From assembly GCA_017461985.1 (NCBI GenBank), contig JAFTSA010000010.1:1-64000 (forward strand): a stretch of DNA of 64,000 bases, read 5' to 3'. Each line of letters begins with the position of its first letter. The first letter of the stretch is position 1. The notes beneath the pieces are model-generated. The model made no database searches and had not been told where the DNA came from. It was given only the letters and a program-made list of their open reading frames with translations. This DNA is from Clostridia bacterium. GTDB taxonomy: Bacteria; Bacillota; Clostridia; Christensenellales; CAG-917. This document shows positions 51,572 through 63,972 of this stretch, piece after piece. A program made the translations under genes and the position numbers.

Positions 51572-52714
51572 TTATGCATTCTGTCCGTCGGGATTTTCGC
51601 CACTTTCTTTGTCGTGCTTGTCTTTCAGTTGACCTTTGATTTGATTCAAAATCATATCCTCGATTTCATCACTATGATTGCCCTCTGCCATATCTTCAAG
51701 GAAGGTGCAGAAGTCACCAACCATTTCGGGTGAGCCAAGGATGAAAGCCCCGAATTCGTCAAGAGCCACGTTGAGGTCTGCGGAGTCAATGTACATTGCG
51801 ATATATTCACCTGCTTCCAAGATTGCAAGGGCAAAGTTTACGTAATCCTTCTTGTTGTAGGCATCCACAATCTTGTCGGCAATGGGCTTCAACTTTGCAT
51901 ATTCCTCTTCAAGGGTGGCACGGATTTCTTCACCTTGTGCCTTGACGTCAGCAATGAAAGCGTCAATCTTTTCGCTGTCGTAATCCTTGAAATATTTGTG
52001 GAGATGCTCTGCGCTCCAGTCCTCCATGCCCTCGACAAACTTGCCTGCTTCTTCAAGGGCGGAAACAAGTGCTTCTTTGCCTTTTTCGATGTTTATTGTG
52101 ATGTTTTCGGCACTTAAAAGTGCGTTTACGTCATCAAGCACGTTTTCAACACGGGTTGCAATTGCTTCTTGCAATGCGGCGGCTGAATCATTTGACATCA
52201 CCACGTTGACTGTGCCGTCTTCCTTCAAATAACCAAGCTCTTCGGCAAGGGACACGATGGTGGTGAACACCTCTTCAACTGTCTTGCCAACAAGGTCGGT
52301 GTCAAGGAGCACGATGACTGCATCTTCGTTGAGGGCCTCAACTGACACCACAACTCCGTCCTCGTCAACCTCAATGCCGAAAGAGGGGTTGATGTCAACG
52401 GACATATAGGTGGGTGCAGGGGCAGGGTCTCCGCCGTGGGTGGAAGGATCATCTCCGTCAGGAGTGAGCATTCCGCCATTGAGACCAAGGCCAAGGCCCA
52501 CGCCAAGACCGACGCAGACGATGAGGCAAGTTGCCACAAAACTCATGATGGCGCGCTTTGAGGTGAACATTGCCTTCACTCTTGCTCTTTCCTTTGCCTT
52601 CAACATTTCTGCCTCGGGAGTGACTGTTTCAACAACCTTTTCTTTGAAGGAGAAATCGGGTAACAGTTTTTCAAATTGCTCTTTCAGTCTTTTTCTTAAA
52701 TTTCTTTTAGTCAT
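51572..52714 (-). CDS. Anti-sigma factor with RsgI-like extracytoplasmic domain
   Basis: A 380-residue single-pass membrane protein. Residues 1-50 are cytosolic and charged, 54-78 form the membrane helix (SFVATCLIVCVGLGVGLGLGL), and outside lies a domain starting YMSVDINPSFGIEVDEDG with ALNEDAVIVL, the RsgI/SigI-type pattern. The remaining ~200 residues are acidic and helical with no known fold. It overlaps the sigma gene by 8 nt and is co-translated, so it should hold the sigma factor until a signal arrives outside. The C-terminal half is probably the sensor; the signal is unknown. Confidence 0.88.
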   Translation of the reverse strand: MTKRNLRKRLKEQFEKLLPDFSFKEKVVETVTPEAEMLKAKERARVKAMFTSKRAIMSFVATCLIVCVGLGVGLGLGLNGGMLTPDGDDPSTHGGDPAPAPTYMSVDINPSFGIEVDEDGVVVSVEALNEDAVIVLLDTDLVGKTVEEVFTTIVSLAEELGYLKEDGTVNVVMSNDSAAALQEAIATRVENVLDDVNALLSAENITINIEKGKEALVSALEEAGKFVEGMEDWSAEHLHKYFKDYDSEKIDAFIADVKAQGEEIRATLEEEYAKLKPIADKIVDAYNKKDYVNFALAILEAGEYIAMYIDSADLNVALDEFGAFILGSPEMVGDFCTFLEDMAEGNHSDEIEDMILNQIKGQLKDKHDKESGENPDGQNA

Positions 52715-53243
52715 AATTTTCTCCTTTCAGTTGTTGTTGCAGTTTTTTCATTGCGGTTTTATATCTATGGCTGACGGTTGACGTTGGCATATCAAGGATT
52801 TTGCCAATCTCTCGTCGTTTATATCCTGCCACGGCGTACATAACCACAATCTGGAAGTCGGTTTCATTAAGGGTGTCGTGTGCCACCTTGAATAGCCCTA
52901 GTGAGTCCTCATCGGGCATTGTCACCTCACCAAAGGCGTTTGCTTCGTCGGTGAAGTCGGTGGCTGACTCGTGCTTCATCTTGTTGTATTCGTTGATTGC
53001 AAGGCGTTTTGCGATTGTAGTGAGCCAAGCCACGAAATGGGAGTCCTCTTCATAATGACCGATATGCTCTACGGCTTTGAGATAGGTGTCCTGAGTGATG
53101 TCCTCAGCCTTCTCTTTTGAGCGGAGAACGGAATACGCCACAAAATACACCACCTTGTGGGTGCAATCGTATATATAGTCAAAGGCGCGCATATCCCCTT
53201 TTTTGAATTTTCTTACCGCTCTTGCGAGCATATCTTTGGTCAT
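52707..53243 (-). CDS. ECF-type RNA polymerase sigma factor
   Basis: A 178-residue group IV sigma factor with regions 2 (YDCTHKVVYFVAYSVLRSKEKAEDITQDTYLKA) and 4 (ETDFQIVVMYAVAGYKRREIGKILDMPTSTVSHRYKTAMKKL), the latter a clear helix-turn-helix. It should direct RNA polymerase to a small regulon, usually including its own gene. Paired with the anti-sigma gene by an 8-nt overlap. ATG 53243 with GTAGGAGA. Confidence 0.94.
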   Translation of the reverse strand: MTKDMLARAVRKFKKGDMRAFDYIYDCTHKVVYFVAYSVLRSKEKAEDITQDTYLKAVEHIGHYEEDSHFVAWLTTIAKRLAINEYNKMKHESATDFTDEANAFGEVTMPDEDSLGLFKVAHDTLNETDFQIVVMYAVAGYKRREIGKILDMPTSTVSHRYKTAMKKLQQQLKGENYD

Positions 53244-54984: not shown

Positions 54985-55019
54985 AGTCACCATGTGCGCG
55001 TATCTTCGCGCTACGTTAT

Positions 55020-55048
55020 ATTATATCACAAATGAATACCATATTCAA
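55020..55048 (-). promoter_or_regulatory. Promoter of pyrE-yitT
   Basis: Minus strand: TTGAAT (55048-55043), 17-nt spacer, TATAAT (55025-55020) with TG one base upstream (extended -10). Confidence 0.8.
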
Positions 55049-55156
55049 ATACTATTTTTCTTCATTAAAACCTACTGGAAAAATGAAAAACGGAAAATAA
55101 AAACAAAGAACTTACATCATCAAGCGTGAAAGCGAAAATACAAGTGAAAGTGCAAA

Positions 55157-55187
55157 ACAAAAGGCACTCAAACGAGTGCCTTTTTTT
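55157..55187. terminator. Terminator of the 55.2-kb gene
   Basis: GGCACTC and GAGTGCC pair around AAAC, with A/T runs on both sides; it can act on either strand. Confidence 0.8.
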
Positions 55188-55188
55188 G

Positions 55189-56034
55189 CTAAAACCAGTT
55201 TTCTAAATATTTCTGTCCTTCCTCACTTTCGATAAACTCGGTTATGATTTCTTTATGAATGGCTTGATAATACTGTGCTATTTGGTCACGTTCCTCAATG
55301 GTTGCTTCTGCAAATACTTCTGGAAGCACGTAATCGTAAGTATACACAATGTGTGTGGCAAACTCTAAAACTCGTTGTTTCCCTTCTTTATAAATGAGCG
55401 TGGCAAAGACAAATCCTGCCCCATACGTGTCATCATCGACTACAACGCCATCCATAATATAAGAAATGTATGCCACATAGAAATCATTGACTCTATATGT
55501 TTCGTGAGAAATGTAATTTTTCAGAGTGTCACTGTCTGAAATCACACCTGTTTTTAAATTTTGAAACAATTTATATTTTATGTTTTGTGGCTTGTCAATA
55601 ATAATAGTTTCAGTCAGAAAAGACTGACCATATATCAGCTGACTGGTCAAATCATCTATATCAGTCAAATCCCCTGCTGTTGGTATCTTTGATTTGCTGC
55701 TTGTATAAACCTCTTGAATTTTGCTGACAGTTGGCTGAAATGCGGTGTCATCTTCAAACGTCAAGTGTGGCACACTACCACCGGTATATACAAGGTTTTT
55801 TTGGCACACTTTTCCAAAGCTAAATTCATTTTTCAACAAAAACTGCCTTATTCCGTCTGTATCGGGACTCGGTGCTTGCAATGCCAAATTAATAAACACG
55901 CCACTCACAGCCAAAATCGCAGCCAAAACCACAGACGCCACCACAATGATGACTATCTTTGCATTTTTGGTCAAGGGCTTCCTTTCCTTTTTCGGGCAAG
56001 AAGATTTATTGATTTCATTATTTTCCTTTCTCAT
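55189..56034 (-). CDS. Single-pass membrane protein of unknown function
   Basis: I do not recognise this 281-residue protein. It has a basic cytosolic N-terminus (SSCPKKERKPLTKN), one membrane helix at 26-51 and a ~230-residue domain outside the cell with no repeats or known motif. The start is ATG 56034 after GGGAGGG; the longer open frame adds 27 residues without a ribosome site. It has its own terminator and composition slightly richer in AT than its neighbours. Confidence 0.75.
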   Translation of the reverse strand: MRKENNEINKSSCPKKERKPLTKNAKIVIIVVASVVLAAILAVSGVFINLALQAPSPDTDGIRQFLLKNEFSFGKVCQKNLVYTGGSVPHLTFEDDTAFQPTVSKIQEVYTSSKSKIPTAGDLTDIDDLTSQLIYGQSFLTETIIIDKPQNIKYKLFQNLKTGVISDSDTLKNYISHETYRVNDFYVAYISYIMDGVVVDDDTYGAGFVFATLIYKEGKQRVLEFATHIVYTYDYVLPEVFAEATIEERDQIAQYYQAIHKEIITEFIESEEGQKYLENWF

Positions 56035-56159
56035 AATTCCCTCCCGTGGCATATTTGACGTTGTGGTGAACCTATCTATACAAGAAACACTCGTCAATTT
56101 ATATATATCATACAAATTATAGACATGTCAACACCCCCCCCATTTTCATAAAAAACAAA

Positions 56160-56190
56160 ACAAAAACGGCGCATTTCTGCGCCGTCTTTT
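56160..56190 (-). terminator. Terminator of the tandem membrane-protein operon
   Basis: ACGGCGCA and TGCGCCGT pair around TTTC (56166-56185); on the minus strand it is followed by TTTTGTTTTG. Confidence 0.88.
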
Positions 56191-56204
56191 GGATTGTTTT
56201 GGGG

Positions 56205-57902
56205 TTATGCTTCCACCAAGGTGTCTGCTGCTTCTTCCTTTTCTGCGTCTTCTTTTGCAAGTTGTTCACGCTTCTTTTCGATGTGTGAGTTGATGACACC
56301 GATTGCGAAGATCATGACCATTGACACTGCGCCAAAGATGTAGAGGAGGTTGCGGAGGGACATAAGTCCGCAGATGGTGACCAGCAAGTTGCCTGATTCA
56401 AGCCAGCTCATATATTGATAGCCGAGGTAGCCAAGTTGGATGCCTTGAGGGATCAATGTGATTGCGATTGAACCGCTGTCTGTCACGTAGAGGTGGAGAT
56501 AGAGTTTTTGTCCGCCTGTTGCTTCAACGATAACCTTGTTGGTGAGGCCTTCGTTGAGGAGATCTTCAATGTTGTCTCCTTGGCTTGAAAGGATGCCGTT
56601 GATTGCGTTTGAGATGAGGGGGTTGTCGCCGAGGAGTGAGCCAAGGTCAAGTTCTGCGATTGCCATGGGATCACCAAGCATATCAAGGACGCACCAGTTG
56701 ATGATTGTGTCAACGTGGCCTGTATCATAGACGTAGTAATAGTTGCCGTCTGTTGCCTTATAAAGTTCAAGGCTTCTGCCGTCTGAGTCAAAGGTGCTTT
56801 CATAGTCTGCGCCCTTTGCGTCCTTATATTCCTCAAGAATTTCAGGCATATACATATAGCTCATAAATCCGTCGTAGTCGATGATGGTCTTGCCGTCGTC
56901 TGCATAGACGGGTTGAGTGTAGGTGTAGCTGTCGTTGAGGATGAGGCGGATGACAACGGGGATTGTCATACGGTTGGACGTTGCGTAGCCGAGGCCTGCG
57001 TCATCGTTGAAGGGGAGATAGCCGTCCATATCCATTGCGCCGTAGTTCTTGCCGAAGAGCCAGCTCATCTTTTCATTGCCTGAGGTGAACAATGCGCCGA
57101 GGCCGTTTGTTTTGACGCCTTCTGCACAGAGTTTTGCGTAGGTTTCTGAATATTCATCAACAAGTGCAAGGCACAGTGCCTTTCTGTCAACTGAGTTCTT
57201 GAGAGCATAGTCATAGTCCATCAAGATATAGTTGTTGTAGATGAAGTCGTAGAGTTCTCTGTCAAGGTCGGTGTAGTAGTTTTCGTCTGCAACCCAGTAT
57301 TCATAGAATGCTTGGTTGGTGGTGAGGCCTGCTTCTTCTGCGTATTCCTTGAAGTCTTCATCCTTCTTGTAGAGGTCTGCATTTTCCTTCACAAACTCAT
57401 CTGCAATCAGTTCTTGATAAGCAAGTGTTCCGTCATAGTTGCCGTTGACAAGGTTCAAGCGGACAAAGTGACGAGTGTAGCCCTTGATGACTTCTGCTTG
57501 GGCGATACCGTTGTTGTATACGTCTTCGACGTAAAGGGTGTTTGAGGTTGCTTTTGCGATGACGTCAGGAAGGACAACGTCAAATGCAAGGCCGAACACT
57601 GAGGTGAGGACCACACAGCAGATGAGCAAGGATGCCGTTCTGCGCATTGCGTTGTGTTTGCTTCCCTTTCTGTTGACGATGAGGGCCACGATTGCAAAGA
57701 TGAGGAGGAAGAGTCCTGCCACGATTGCACCAACGTAGGGCCAGAATGAATAGAAGTCTGCGCCTTCTGCAGTCTTCATACAGATGAGGAATGCAAGAGC
57801 GACGATGACGGGGAATGTGAGGATATAGCACAGTGCTTTCACAAAACCAAGGCCAACAAAGTGTTTTTGCTTCTTTTGAGCGGGTTTCTTAGTCTTTGCC
57901 AT
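56205..57902 (-). CDS. Large membrane protein of unknown function, second of a tandem pair
   Basis: A 565-residue protein without recognised family. A lysine-rich start is followed by three membrane helices (about residues 20-115), an acidic ectodomain of ~370 residues rich in Tyr and Asp, one or two helices near 505-530 (LLYIFGAVSMVMIFAIGVI), and a short charged cytosolic end. It begins 2 nt after the stop of the 701-residue protein, which has the same plan. No catalytic motif or cysteine pattern stands out outside. Envelope role is inference. Confidence 0.8.
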   Translation of the reverse strand: MAKTKKPAQKKQKHFVGLGFVKALCYILTFPVIVALAFLICMKTAEGADFYSFWPYVGAIVAGLFLLIFAIVALIVNRKGSKHNAMRRTASLLICCVVLTSVFGLAFDVVLPDVIAKATSNTLYVEDVYNNGIAQAEVIKGYTRHFVRLNLVNGNYDGTLAYQELIADEFVKENADLYKKDEDFKEYAEEAGLTTNQAFYEYWVADENYYTDLDRELYDFIYNNYILMDYDYALKNSVDRKALCLALVDEYSETYAKLCAEGVKTNGLGALFTSGNEKMSWLFGKNYGAMDMDGYLPFNDDAGLGYATSNRMTIPVVIRLILNDSYTYTQPVYADDGKTIIDYDGFMSYMYMPEILEEYKDAKGADYESTFDSDGRSLELYKATDGNYYYVYDTGHVDTIINWCVLDMLGDPMAIAELDLGSLLGDNPLISNAINGILSSQGDNIEDLLNEGLTNKVIVEATGGQKLYLHLYVTDSGSIAITLIPQGIQLGYLGYQYMSWLESGNLLVTICGLMSLRNLLYIFGAVSMVMIFAIGVINSHIEKKREQLAKEDAEKEEAADTLVEA

Positions 57903-57904
57903 AA

Positions 57905-60010
57905 TTATGCCACCTCCTCGTTATTTTCTGCAACTTTTCCGGCTTTCTTGCCCTTCTTGCCTTTTTTCTTGTTGGGATCAATTTGACCAGTTGCCCAGAG
58001 GATTTCTCTGTCTGCTGCGATATAGCTCATCATTGTGAAGAAGAGTGCGAGGCCTGCAAAGGTCATGAGCATATCTCTTACGATGAGGAGTGAATAGAGT
58101 GTAGGTTGATATGAGAGGTCTGTTTGAAGTTGTCTTACTGCGGTGAGGTTTTGGAGGCCAAATTCTGCACCGTAGTTGCCACTGCCAAGGGAGCCACCGA
58201 TAAGTCTGCTTCCGCAGAGATAGCCGTGGAGACCGCCTTCATATTCTGCTCTCTTATACTTTGCGTATGCTGCTTGATATTCCATGATTGCCCAATCAGT
58301 GTCGTCTGCGGGGTCAAGGGATTCATCAACGTAGAAGTCATATTCAGGAGCAAGGACGGGTGAGGTGTACCAGTAGAGGTTTTCAAGAAGACCTGCAAGC
58401 ATGGTTTCAAGACCTGCAACGCTGTTGTCGTCTGCCTTTGCTTCAAGACCGATCATGGTGATGATTTCTGCAAGCATCCCGTTTGAAATGCCGAGGGTTG
58501 AGATGAGTTGCTTCACTGTTGCCACTGAGAAGTTTTCATCAAGGTCGATTGCAACGTCTGCTGCACCATCGGGAAGGTTTTGGAGGACGATTTGGAGGTT
58601 GCCACTCCACTTGATTGCCAACTTGATGTTGACAAGGTCAGCAAGTTCTGCTGAGAGATATGCGATGGTTTCAGGCATACTGCCAAGGACCATACCAAGG
58701 ATTTGTCCAACTGAGAATGAAAGTCCGCCAAGCAAGCTTTCAACTGTGGGAAGAAGTGATTGAAGGAGTTTTGCACTGCCAAGAGCACCACCAAGTTCAT
58801 TGAGGACACGGTTGAGTTCGGTGACGGTCAGTGAGTAGTCTGCTGCCATTGCATTTTCTCTTTCCCAAAGGAAGATATCTTCTTCAGTTGCATCTGCGCC
58901 GGTGTAGTATTCCTCACGACGTGCTGCTGCGCCTGCTTCGATTTCTGCACGGAAGTCTGCTTCGTTGGTCTTGCCTGTGAGGGCGAAGAGTTCCTTCATT
59001 TCTTCTTGTGCTTCATAGTAATCTTCGAGGATGTTGAGTGCAACTTCAAGGCTGTAGATATATCCGTCTGCCAGCATACCGTTCTTGTTGTAATATGCTT
59101 CGCCGTAGACGCCTTCACTCTTTTCGTAAACTACCTTGTCGCCGTCATACCAGAGATAGCATTCCACGTTTTCACTTGCATCGGGAGAAACGGCTTGTGT
59201 GTAGTGCACTGAATAGAAATTGCCGAAGACTTCCACAGGATTTTCGCCGTACATATCTGTCAACACCAAGGAATCTGCCCAAATCTTGTTGAAATCACCA
59301 GGTTCTGCGTTTTCGTCAGGGGCGATTCTGATGAGGATGTGGTCGTATTCATCAATAATGGCGTCGCCGTCTGCATTGTAGTCTGCATTGTAGTTATAAC
59401 CGAAATCATCATAGTAGAGGGCTTCGTTGGTGAAGTTGGCTGCGTTGCCACCCTTGAAACCACCATACATAGGTATGTTGTAGACTCTCAAATATTGTTC
59501 TACGTTGTTGATCAGGGTGCTTGAGTATGAGGTTTTCATTGAAAGGCCGCCGTTGCCTGCGCCACTGGTGTGGGTGCGATAGTAGGACAGTTGATTTGTG
59601 TAGTCCTTGACCACCACGCCTTCAGGTGCTTCTGCTGCCAAGGTTTCAAGCTTTGCAGTGTAGATTGCATCAATTGCAAACATAGGCACAAGCATAACCA
59701 CAAGCATAACTGCCACAACGATCATTGCTCTTGTACGTCTGTTTTTGACTGCGAATCTGCAAATGATTTGAACAAGCCCGATAATCACCCAAACTGCCAA
59801 AGCAATCCAGATTGCGTACATTGCAGGTGCGCTGAGCATTGACTTAATTGAAGTAAACAAACCTTCGCCGTAGTTGCCCATGAAGGGGTTGTGTCCGTAG
59901 ACTTGCATGACGAGGGTGAATACTGCAAGAAAGAAAATGGGCAAGCCCAAGCAATAGTAAATGACTTTCAACATGCGGAAAAGTCTTGCTTTCTTTACTC
60001 TTTGCTCCAT
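57905..60010 (-). CDS. Large membrane protein of unknown function, first of a tandem pair
   Basis: A 701-residue protein, no recognised family. Three helices lie in residues 12-115, then an ectodomain of ~520 residues: Tyr/Asn/Asp-rich with a DxDxDG-like stretch (NADYNADGDAIIDEYD), then a hydrophobic helical part (LGGALGSAKLLQSLLPTVESLLGGLSFSV). A last membrane helix (LLIVRDMLMTFAGLALFFTMMSYIA) and a Lys-rich tail (KKKGKKGKKAGK) follow. It shares layout, not obvious sequence, with the next gene. ATG 60010 has AAAGGAG. Confidence 0.8.
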   Translation of the reverse strand: MEQRVKKARLFRMLKVIYYCLGLPIFFLAVFTLVMQVYGHNPFMGNYGEGLFTSIKSMLSAPAMYAIWIALAVWVIIGLVQIICRFAVKNRRTRAMIVVAVMLVVMLVPMFAIDAIYTAKLETLAAEAPEGVVVKDYTNQLSYYRTHTSGAGNGGLSMKTSYSSTLINNVEQYLRVYNIPMYGGFKGGNAANFTNEALYYDDFGYNYNADYNADGDAIIDEYDHILIRIAPDENAEPGDFNKIWADSLVLTDMYGENPVEVFGNFYSVHYTQAVSPDASENVECYLWYDGDKVVYEKSEGVYGEAYYNKNGMLADGYIYSLEVALNILEDYYEAQEEMKELFALTGKTNEADFRAEIEAGAAARREEYYTGADATEEDIFLWERENAMAADYSLTVTELNRVLNELGGALGSAKLLQSLLPTVESLLGGLSFSVGQILGMVLGSMPETIAYLSAELADLVNIKLAIKWSGNLQIVLQNLPDGAADVAIDLDENFSVATVKQLISTLGISNGMLAEIITMIGLEAKADDNSVAGLETMLAGLLENLYWYTSPVLAPEYDFYVDESLDPADDTDWAIMEYQAAYAKYKRAEYEGGLHGYLCGSRLIGGSLGSGNYGAEFGLQNLTAVRQLQTDLSYQPTLYSLLIVRDMLMTFAGLALFFTMMSYIAADREILWATGQIDPNKKKGKKGKKAGKVAENNEEVA

Positions 60011-60094
60011 AATATTCTCCTTTTCTTATCAAGTGTGGGGCATAGCACGCTACACCCGCACGGCTTTAATGATACAAAAATAATTATCTCATTA

Positions 60095-60123
60095 ATTATA
60101 TCACACGCGTTTTAACATTTCAA
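60095..60123 (-). promoter_or_regulatory. Promoter of the tandem membrane-protein operon
   Basis: Minus strand: TTGAAA (60123-60118), 17-nt spacer, TATAAT (60100-60095) with an upstream TG. Confidence 0.8.
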
Positions 60124-60205
60124 TAGACAATTTAATGTTTTTTAACAATACCCTATTTTGTGCAAGATAATCGACAAAAACCACAAAAAGGCTAAATAAG
60201 TTGTA

Positions 60206-60233
60206 TTGCAATTCGATTTGAAAGTGCTATAAT
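60206..60233 (+). promoter_or_regulatory. Promoter of gdhA
   Basis: TTGCAA (60206-60211), 16-nt spacer, TATAAT (60228-60233) with TGC directly before it (extended -10). Confidence 0.7.
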
Positions 60234-60276
60234 ATTCCTATACACATCGCATCAAGCGACTGATTTGGGAGGAATT

Positions 60277-61623
60277 ATGTCTTATATTTCAGAAGTCATC
60301 GAGCAAACCAAGCTGAGAAACCCCGGTCAACCTCAATTTATGCAAACCGTTGAAGAAGTCCTGGGCTCAATCGCACCCGCAGTTGAACAAAACGAAAAGA
60401 AATTGCGCAAAAACGTGATTTTGGAACGTCTTGTTGAACCCGACCGTCAAATCATCTTCCGCGTTCCTTGGATGGATGACAACGGTGTCTATCACGTCAA
60501 CACCGGCTACCGCGTTCAATTCAACAACGCAATCGGCCCTTACAAGGGTGGCCTCCGCTTCCAAAAGGACGTCAACCTTGACACAATGAAGTTCCTTGCA
60601 TTTGAACAAACCTTCAAAAACAGCCTCACTTCCCTTCCTATGGGCGGCGGCAAGGGCGGCAGTGACTTCGACCCCACCGGCAAGAGCGACGATGAAATCA
60701 TGCGTTTCTGCCAAAGCTTTATGAATGAACTCTATCGTCATATCGGCCCCAATATGGACGTCCCCGCAGGCGATATGGGCGTTGGTGGACGTGAAATCGG
60801 CTATCTCTTCGGTCAATACAAGAAGATCGTCGGCGACTATGAAAACGGCGTCTTGACAGGCAAAGGCCTCTCCTACGGCGGAAGCCTTATCCGCCCCGAA
60901 GCAACCGGCTTTGGCGCAACCTACTTCCTTGACGAAGTGCTCAAACACGAAGGTCAAACCATTGAAGGAAAGACATTCTGTCTTTCAGGTTTCGGCAACG
61001 TGGCATGGGGCGCATCAAAGAAGATTGATGAACTTGGTGGCAAGGTTGTCACACTGTCAGGCCCTGACGGATTCATCTATGACCCCGATGGCGTCACCGG
61101 TGAAAAGATTGACTACCTCCTTGAAATGCGCGCATCCAACCGCAACAGAGTCCAAGACTACTCAGACAAATTCGGTTGCGACTTCGTGGCAGGCAAAAAG
61201 CCTTGGGGCAACGTCAAAGCAGACATCTATATGCCCTGCGCACGTCAAAACGAAATCCTTCTTGAAGATGCAAAAGCAATGGTGGCAATGGGCGTGCCCA
61301 TCCTCAACGAAGTTTCAAATATGCCCACCACCAACGAAGCACTTGCATACCTCCAAGCACACGGTGTCCTCGTCACTCCTTCAAAGGCAGTCAACGCAGG
61401 CGGTGTTGCAACAAGCGGTCTTGAAATGAGCCAAAACAGTGAAAGACTTTCATGGCAAGCAGAAGAAGTTGACAGACAACTGAAAAACATCATGAAAGGC
61501 ATCCACAATCAAATCTGTGATGCACTTGACACCTATGGTCTCCCCTACAATCCTGTTGCAGGCGCAAACCTTGCAGGCTTCAAGAAAGTTGCAGACGCAA
61601 TGCTTGCACAAGGCATCTATTAA
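60277..61623 (+). CDS. gdhA: Glutamate dehydrogenase, probably NADP-dependent
   Basis: A 448-residue family I hexameric glutamate dehydrogenase that interconverts 2-oxoglutarate plus ammonia and glutamate. Substrate lysines and the glycine loop are intact: YKGGLRFQ, LPMGGGKGGSDFDP, VPAGDMGVGGREIGYLFGQY; the nucleotide fold follows (LSGFGNVAWGA). The length and YxxNG-type sequence fit the biosynthetic NADP form. ATG 60277 with GGGAGG; an in-frame upstream GTG-type start is unlikely. Single gene with own promoter and terminator. Confidence 0.96.
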   Translation: MSYISEVIEQTKLRNPGQPQFMQTVEEVLGSIAPAVEQNEKKLRKNVILERLVEPDRQIIFRVPWMDDNGVYHVNTGYRVQFNNAIGPYKGGLRFQKDVNLDTMKFLAFEQTFKNSLTSLPMGGGKGGSDFDPTGKSDDEIMRFCQSFMNELYRHIGPNMDVPAGDMGVGGREIGYLFGQYKKIVGDYENGVLTGKGLSYGGSLIRPEATGFGATYFLDEVLKHEGQTIEGKTFCLSGFGNVAWGASKKIDELGGKVVTLSGPDGFIYDPDGVTGEKIDYLLEMRASNRNRVQDYSDKFGCDFVAGKKPWGNVKADIYMPCARQNEILLEDAKAMVAMGVPILNEVSNMPTTNEALAYLQAHGVLVTPSKAVNAGGVATSGLEMSQNSERLSWQAEEVDRQLKNIMKGIHNQICDALDTYGLPYNPVAGANLAGFKKVADAMLAQGIY

Positions 61624-62559: not shown

Positions 62560-62597
62560 GCACACTTTTCACATCGTGGCAGTGTGCTTTCTTTTTC
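62560..62597 (+). terminator. Attenuator-like hairpin between the SCIFF gene and its maturase
   Basis: GCACACT (62560-62566) pairs with AGTGTGC (62581-62587) around a 14-nt loop and is followed by TTTCTTTTTCT, which abuts the maturase ATG. It should let most transcripts end after the peptide gene, giving peptide in excess over enzyme. Confidence 0.7.
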
Positions 62598-62598
62598 T

Positions 62599-63972
62599 AT
62601 GATACATCAATTCAAACAAGGTGGTCTTTGTGTTGTAGTTGACGTCTTTTCAGGTGCAATTCACTTGGTGGACGACGTGGCGTACGACATAATTGCTCTC
62701 TACGAAACCACTGAAAAGGAACAAATTGTAAACACTCTCGTGGAAAAATACGCCCACGAGAATTTGTCACGTGAAGAAATCGGTGAGTGCTATGACGAAA
62801 TCACTGAACTGAAAAATGAGGGCAAACTCTTCTCCCCCGACACCTTTGCACCCATCTCAAACAAGTTGAAGGAAAAGACGTCGGGTGTTGTAAAGGCACT
62901 GTGTCTGCACGTGGCGCACACCTGCAACCTTAACTGCGCATATTGTTTTGCAAGTCAAGGCAAATATTCTGGTGAAAGAGCGGTTATGAGTGAAGAAGTG
63001 GGCAAACGCGCCCTTGACTTCCTCATTGAAAATTCTGGCACTCGTCACAACCTTGAAGTTGACTTCTTCGGCGGTGAGCCTCTTATGAATTTTGACGTGG
63101 TCAAAAATCTTGTGGCTTATGCCCGTGAAAGAGAAAAGGAAACAGGCAAAAACTTCCGCTTTACCCTCACCACCAACGGCATGCTCATTGACGATGACGT
63201 CATCGATTTTGCAAACCGTGAGATGAGCAACGTGGTCCTCTCCCTTGACGGCAGAAAGGAAATCCACGATGAATTCCGTGTGGACTATGCAGGCAAAGGT
63301 AGTTTTGACAAGATTGTGCCCAAATTCCAAAAGTTGGTGGAAGCAAGAGGGGGCAAGGACTACTATATGCGTGGCACTTTCACCCACCGCAATCCTGACT
63401 TTGTCAACGACATCCGCACTATGCTTGACCTAGGCTTTGACGAGCTGAGCATGGAGCCTGTGGTATGCGCACCCGATGACCCTGCCGCCCTCAACGACAG
63501 TGACCTTGAAATGGTGATGCAACAATATGAAGAGTTGGCGTCACTTATGCTTGAGCGCAGACGTCAATGCAAGCCCTTCACCTTCTATCACTACATGATA
63601 GACCTTTCTGGTGGCCCTTGCATCTACAAGCGTGTGTCCGGTTGCGGAAGCGGAACTGAATATATGGCAGTCACCCCTTGGGGAGACCTTTACCCTTGCC
63701 ACCAATTTGTGGGGGATGAAAAGTTCAAGCTGGGTGACATCTACAACGGCGTCACCAACACTGCTCTACAAAACGAATTCAAACAGTGCAACGTCTATGC
63801 TCACCCTGAGTGCAACGACTGTTGGGCAAAACTGTACTGCTCTGGCGGTTGCGCCGCAAACGCATATCACGCCACCGGCAAGATAACCGGCATCTATGAA
63901 AATGGTTGCAAACTTTTCCGCAAACGTATGGAATGCGCCATCTTCCTTGAAGCCATGAAAACCCTTGAATAA
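62599..63972 (+). CDS. scfB: SCIFF radical-SAM maturase (SPASM family)
   Basis: A 457-residue peptide-modifying radical-SAM enzyme. Order: N-terminal peptide-binding (RRE-like) part, 1-90; radical-SAM core with Cys109, Cys113, Cys116 (CNLNCAYC) and FFGGEPL; C-terminal SPASM domain with at least seven cysteines (VSGCGSGTEYMA, LYPCHQF, CNDCWAKLYCSGGC, NGCKLF) for two auxiliary iron-sulfur clusters. The start MIHQFKQGGL is the family N-terminus. There is no ribosome site before it; the codon follows the U run of the hairpin. Partner of the peptide gene just upstream. Confidence 0.96.
   Translation: MIHQFKQGGLCVVVDVFSGAIHLVDDVAYDIIALYETTEKEQIVNTLVEKYAHENLSREEIGECYDEITELKNEGKLFSPDTFAPISNKLKEKTSGVVKALCLHVAHTCNLNCAYCFASQGKYSGERAVMSEEVGKRALDFLIENSGTRHNLEVDFFGGEPLMNFDVVKNLVAYAREREKETGKNFRFTLTTNGMLIDDDVIDFANREMSNVVLSLDGRKEIHDEFRVDYAGKGSFDKIVPKFQKLVEARGGKDYYMRGTFTHRNPDFVNDIRTMLDLGFDELSMEPVVCAPDDPAALNDSDLEMVMQQYEELASLMLERRRQCKPFTFYHYMIDLSGGPCIYKRVSGCGSGTEYMAVTPWGDLYPCHQFVGDEKFKLGDIYNGVTNTALQNEFKQCNVYAHPECNDCWAKLYCSGGCAANAYHATGKITGIYENGCKLFRKRMECAIFLEAMKTLE

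Follow-up and report, generated by a model that had tools for sequence, protein, structure and literature searches.

The P1-P2 locus

Near one end of a 64,000-nucleotide stretch of a Clostridia bacterium contig (JAFTSA010000010.1, positions 1 to 64,000; the whole stretch is referred to as the window) lie two adjacent genes for large membrane proteins, which we call P1 and P2 and which are the subject of this analysis. Both are read from the minus strand: P1 (57905..60010) comes first and encodes 701 amino acids (aa), and P2 (56205..57902) follows after a gap of 2 nucleotides (nt) and encodes 565 aa. An earlier prediction, made from the DNA letters of this stretch, had given the same coordinates, lengths and 2-nt gap, all of which were exact on recheck. 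It had also described for each protein three N-terminal helices, a large acidic ectodomain, a C-terminal helix and a tail, and this architecture was confirmed by hydropathy and charge, with helix centres at residues 25, 75, 104 and 650 of P1 and at residues 33, 66, 94 and 515 of P2.

On the minus strand, the first three transmembrane helices (TM1-3) of P1 form a membrane frame (59660..60010, approximately residues 1-117) that is homologous to the corresponding frame of P2 (57567..57902, approximately residues 1-112). They are followed in P1 by an outer domain with a net charge of about -53 (58091..59659, approximately residues 118-640) and by TM4 (58031..58090, approximately residues 641-660), which carries an invariant Arg645 near its start, and in P2 by an outer domain with a net charge of about -38 (56391..57566, approximately residues 113-504) and by TM4 with an invariant Arg517 (56328..56390, approximately residues 505-525). 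The N-termini and the TM2-TM3 loops of both proteins carry +3 to +6, fitting a topology with both termini inside, and the net charge of the tails is +3 in P1 and -4 in P2. The arrangement of three helices before and one after the outer domain is also found in most relatives, and the outer domains differ strongly in length among species, from about 340 to 1,080 aa in P1 and from about 380 to 950 aa in P2. The homologues in L139 are compact, with about 464 and 429 aa. A variable region of P1 contains an EF-hand-like acidic loop (residues 210-221; 59348..59383, minus strand); a scan of 79 P1/P2 proteins found the strict pattern of this loop in 3.

Upstream of P1 we found a promoter-like site (TTGAAA-17-TATAAT with a TG before the -10 element; 60095..60123, minus strand) that matches the consensus at 11 of 12 positions and has the best score within 55000-60500. 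P2 is followed by an intrinsic-terminator-like stem of 12 pairs, 6 of them G-C, and then a T-rich tail (56162..56189, minus strand). Over 55000-60500, sites of the promoter class numbered 11 against 8.8 expected from shuffles and those of the terminator class 3 against 4.6, that is, there was no excess of either, and only strength and placement therefore favour these two sites as promoter and terminator of the pair. The dedicated promoter and strong terminator of the original prediction thus hold insofar as the best-scoring sites are well placed, but site classes of this kind are no commoner here than in shuffled sequence.

Linkage and fusion of P1 and P2, and common descent of their membrane frames

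Whether the two genes always occur together had been proposed as a check, and the answer came from 41 loci in 39 genomes, all picked for having a match, which we examined in detail. In 38 of the 41 loci, P1 and P2 are separate genes adjacent on one strand with P1 first, and in the other three they form a single fused frame. Fused frames come from two families. In the window's own family they belong to genus g4 and measure 1349 residues in L076 and 1352 in L077, and that of L100 is truncated at the start of its contig; in the other family they belong to genus g25 (968 residues in L069, 981 in L164), and their P2 half only partly matches the P2 profile. In genus g25, the frames of L069 (6620-9517) and L164 are a second, fused copy of P1-P2. 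Fusion joins the P1 C-terminus to the P2 N-terminus via a short linker, which fits a cytosolic location of both joined termini.

The split pairs are linked at the level of translation signals as well. In the window, the ribosome-binding site of P2, GAGGAGGTG (57911..57919, minus strand), lies inside the last P1 codons, where it is read as Glu-Glu-Val. In 33 of the 38 split pairs, a Shine-Dalgarno-like motif falls within the final 24 nt of P1 (counted with the stop codon) and is mostly translated there as Glu-Val or Gly-Gly. Of the exceptions, L063, L141, L146 and L152 have a purine-rich GGAGG-, GAGG- or GGGGG-like stretch that starts at or just past the P1 stop codon, and the fifth, L066, has a GGGGG run upstream. 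The conserved final residues of P1 (EV or GG) are therefore best explained by the P2 ribosome-binding site within the end of P1.

A single-protein search of 60 relatives detected a P1 homologue in 36 and a P2 homologue in 38. The two genomes with P2 only were G008, in which the profile finds P1 beside P2, and G039, the P2 match of which is marginal and was discounted. Within the window's family, the same kind of search placed P2 in 34 of 36 genomes, and the two genomes without it are 54% and 83% complete. An order-wide search with the P2 profile matched 72 of 396 genomes; four of these matches (G249, G280, G281 and G335) were set aside as marginal together with that of G039 (E 6.7e-5 to 9e-4), and the remainder fell into families f1, f13 (genus g22), f16 (genus g25) and f24. 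Of the 30 f24 genomes listed from the order-wide sample, 27 match P2, and none of the 13 listed genomes of genus g49 in f16 does. The pair is thus near-universal in the window's family and one other, and present in parts of two more families. Across the class, 5 of 391 genomes matched, and only G000 and G006, both of the window's family, were convincing; the matches in G048, G583 and G753 (E 2e-4 to 9e-4, over 54-61 columns) were taken as chance.

The original prediction had seen two proteins of one design with no clear similarity to each other. Comparison of the whole P1 and P2 profiles aligned TM1-3 with an E-value of 3.8e-14 (2.4e-13 with more compact relatives). The TM1-3 pieces alone gave 5.4e-12, compared to 0.01 for a reversed control and 0.1 or worse for column shuffles, and the C-terminal pieces with TM4 gave 4.4e-5. 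As a further control, six multi-TM clusters that are unrelated to the pair but encoded in these neighbourhoods reached 0.033 or worse against either profile. Moreover, the profile of one family finds members of the other (best E 1.2e-13 and 5.4e-10), and in 24 loci the P1 and P2 profiles detected no frame of 200 residues or more besides the pair. The profile-profile comparison of the outer domains gave an E-value of 0.21, no better than shuffles. The stated lack of similarity consequently applies to the outer domains but fails for TM1-3 and TM4, and since the membrane parts are homologous by profile, their common ancestry accounts for the shared design. Judged by these profiles, the outer domains appear to have diverged beyond recognition or to have been replaced.

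Fixed order and adjacency, fusion, the ribosome-binding site placed in P1 and the paralogous frames all support the two-part envelope complex suggested in the original prediction. On this sequence evidence, we lean towards the view that P1 and P2 are two subunits of one membrane complex that arose by ancient gene duplication. In such a complex, the N- and C-termini of both proteins would be cytosolic, as suggested by the charge pattern and by the fact that the P1 C-terminus can be joined to the P2 N-terminus. Translational coupling would ensure that P1 and P2 are made in fixed stoichiometry, the conserved 3+1 helix frames may pair within the membrane to give a hetero-oligomer, and the divergent outer domains would together form one surface-facing assembly outside the cell.

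Neighbouring genes and candidate partners

In the window, the pair is flanked by a gene of the GdhA cluster and by a gene for a 308-aa orphan protein. The glutamate dehydrogenase gene (60265-61623, plus strand) is divergent from P1; counting this one, the window's family has the glutamate dehydrogenase cluster at 8 loci, mostly in this divergent orientation. The 308-aa protein (55189-56115, minus strand, TTG start), downstream of the pair, has an N-terminal hydrophobic stretch by eye, no Pfam match and a counterpart at the same place in L072. In some sister genera, the genes for phosphoribosyl pyrophosphate synthetase, a beta-lactamase-fold hydrolase and Rho lie near the pair; in f24 its neighbours are other metabolic and transport genes, and elsewhere they include a phosphate transporter, flavoproteins, a riboflavin energy-coupling factor component and others. 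A conserved operon context across clades was therefore rejected: the neighbours change clade by clade.

Two sets of neighbours drew attention as candidate partners. The first is a surface protein of about 1,300 residues encoded directly after P2 in L064 (9858-13682), L067 (4206-8036) and L154 (10408-14331), and cut off in L155. The gene was seen in f13 and, within the window's family, in G008; two of the three full-length copies (L067 and L154) have a lipobox-like N-terminus by eye, and the two copies scanned had no Pfam match. A single-protein search found it in 2 of the 60 relatives, the window's genome not being one of the two, and it was rejected as a general partner. The second lies beyond P1 and is read in the direction that leads away from it: an NfeD-SPFH/SPFH gene in L068, L143 and L145 (genus g25) and an NfeD-FloA gene set in L070, which belongs to another family.

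Two further regions of the window lie apart from the pair. At 51572-53243 (minus strand), a 178-aa protein that is sigma-factor-like by eye is encoded beside one of 380 aa whose central part matches an RsgI-like domain (PF23750, E 1.2e-21), and the two are a probable sigma/anti-sigma pair. At 62584-63972 (plus strand) lies the gene for a 462-aa radical-SAM/SPASM-type peptide maturase, SCIFF-like by eye.

Known families, alternative explanations and the role of the pair

Pfam and NCBIfam searches with E-values up to 10 returned nothing near a curated cut-off for P1 or P2, and a sequence search of the PDB gave no match for either. Profiles for family searches were built from 25-26 diverse relatives; that of P1 matched no family, and that of P2 reached 0.21 or worse. 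When the members of the alignments, 26 for P2 and 25 for P1, were scanned individually against Pfam (E up to 0.1), matches were scattered and mostly to helix-rich families; among those listed (the first 25 of 42 and the first 25 of 26), the best was DUF7937 (E 1.3e-5), below its cut-off and covering only the N-terminal helices. PADLOC, which holds anti-phage defence models, had no match for P1 or P2 of the window; a single distant P1 matched weakly (E 0.0063). Pfam likewise recognised no SPFH or NfeD domain in P1 or P2 themselves, and one IMG/VR scan with P1 yielded no viral homologue. As far as their listings and the openings of their abstracts tell, none of the literature records found describes the pair. 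The view that neither protein belongs to a known family was thus borne out by the Pfam, NCBIfam, PADLOC and PDB searches, and a profile match to an FtsX-like permease or to another family explaining both proteins, named in the original prediction as its refutation, was looked for and not found. P1 and P2 are a new, lineage-restricted pair of protein families that is well established as a unit.

AlphaFold2 models computed from 21-sequence alignments had a mean predicted local distance difference test score (pLDDT) of 68.4 for P1 and 66.4 for P2, and a predicted template modelling score of 0.60 each. Foldseek with these models found no PDB entry at an E-value of 0.001 or better. VIA-align paired the middling models with pore-forming toxins, MukB, TTYH, PRPH2, AcrB and MmpL3, all with Z under 7, and these hits were left uninterpreted. 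Tetraspanins, which are eukaryotic, have a large TM3-TM4 loop, as P1 and P2 do, and a CCG motif, but the loops of tetraspanins and claudins are small beside the outer domains of P1 and P2, and by eye the CCG motif is absent from both sequences. The weak resemblances (Z 5-7) to PRPH2-ROM1, to TTYH and to a designed claudin fold stand at the noise level of common arrangements, on models with pLDDT 66-68.

Among other explanations, we considered that the pair is a secretion or a lipid- or lipoprotein-handling machine. Here the paralogous frames would make up the gate, cargo would be handed outward by the outer domains, and surface lipoproteins would act either as cargo or as receptor. SecD and SecF, with six TMs each, are likewise membrane paralogues encoded in tandem; their outer domains are large, and the two are sometimes fused. 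The large lipobox-like protein after the pair in L067 and L154 would suit such a machine, and the four helices weakly resemble those of resistance-nodulation-division transporters such as MmpL3, at a Z of about 5 that is well short of a trustworthy level. On the other hand, P1 and P2 have 3+1 TMs and no SecD/SecF match in NCBIfam, no ATPase is linked to the window's pair, the third gene was not found in most relatives, and contig C2 of the window's own genome (G000) encodes a true SecD together with a second SecD-model match of SecF-like length. We regard a machine of this kind as unlikely. Replacement of SecDF by the pair was rejected, as SecD is present in 58 of the 60 relatives, including G000. 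In G047, SecD- and SecF-region matches fall in one 835-aa frame on contig C13, a probable SecDF fusion.

P1 and P2 might instead be two receptors or sensors whose outer domains bind ligand and whose cytosolic tails signal. The highly variable length of the outer domains on a conserved membrane frame would fit this, as would the acidic loop of P1, but the tails are short, of low complexity and not conserved, their EV or GG ends are accounted for by the P2 ribosome-binding site, and Pfam found no kinase, regulator or anti-sigma domain in the window's pair, which leaves sensing improbable. Still less do we credit membership in the bacterial flotillin (SPFH-NfeD) membrane-microdomain system, to which the NfeD and SPFH or FloA genes adjoining P1 in the four loci named above would point. 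In the family of L070, NfeD occurs in 32 of 40 genomes, yet among the listed P2 places it shares a stretch with P2 only in G058; across the 60 relatives NfeD was found in 21, and it was not found in G000 or in most of the window's family, which have the pair, so that there is no general link to NfeD-SPFH.

That a described family such as the ATP-binding cassette (ABC) permeases explains both proteins is hardly credible: FtsX, MacB and LolCE do have four TMs, a large outer domain and often paralogous pairing, as P1 and P2 have, but in these permeases a single TM precedes the outer domain, three follow it and the partner is an ABC ATPase. In P1 and P2 the order is three and one, no linked ATPase was seen, their unit is bounded by the promoter- and terminator-like sites, and no FtsX-type model appeared in Pfam up to an E-value of 10 or among the families listed for the 51 alignment members. 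The FtsX outer domain (PF18075) was detected in none of the 60 relatives, all genomes of this order, whether or not they have the pair, and so says nothing on a replacement of FtsX by the pair; in the control genomes it was present in 7 of 14. As an arrangement, membrane subunits that are paralogous and encoded in tandem are already known; none of the comparisons with known families established P1 and P2 as members.

For the two-subunit membrane complex that we favour, several observations have to be set on the other side. Adjacency and fusion can stem from coordinated dosage instead of contact, the models are middling and without a significant fold match, the neighbours vary by clade, so no common pathway is indicated, and the third gene, given its rarity and its absence from the window's genome, cannot be a general partner. 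As to what the complex would do, we tentatively propose a scaffold or anchor in the envelope, made constitutively, on which extracytoplasmic partners such as the surface protein of about 1,300 residues would be held or assembled; of the roles considered we find this one the likeliest, though in itself it is possible rather than probable. A bolder and more doubtful proposal is that the pair might be the membrane core of an undescribed envelope machine, belonging to the core genome of a few gut Clostridia families. Its duplicated 3+1-helix frame would make a hetero-oligomeric gate or platform that recruits surface proteins particular to each clade, and its outer parts would have been rebuilt independently.

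A near-universal, inseparable pair without a recognisable family, found in several uncultured gut families, points to a core envelope function that annotation has missed, and P1 and P2 provide both two defined partners to study jointly and a marker gene pair for these clades.

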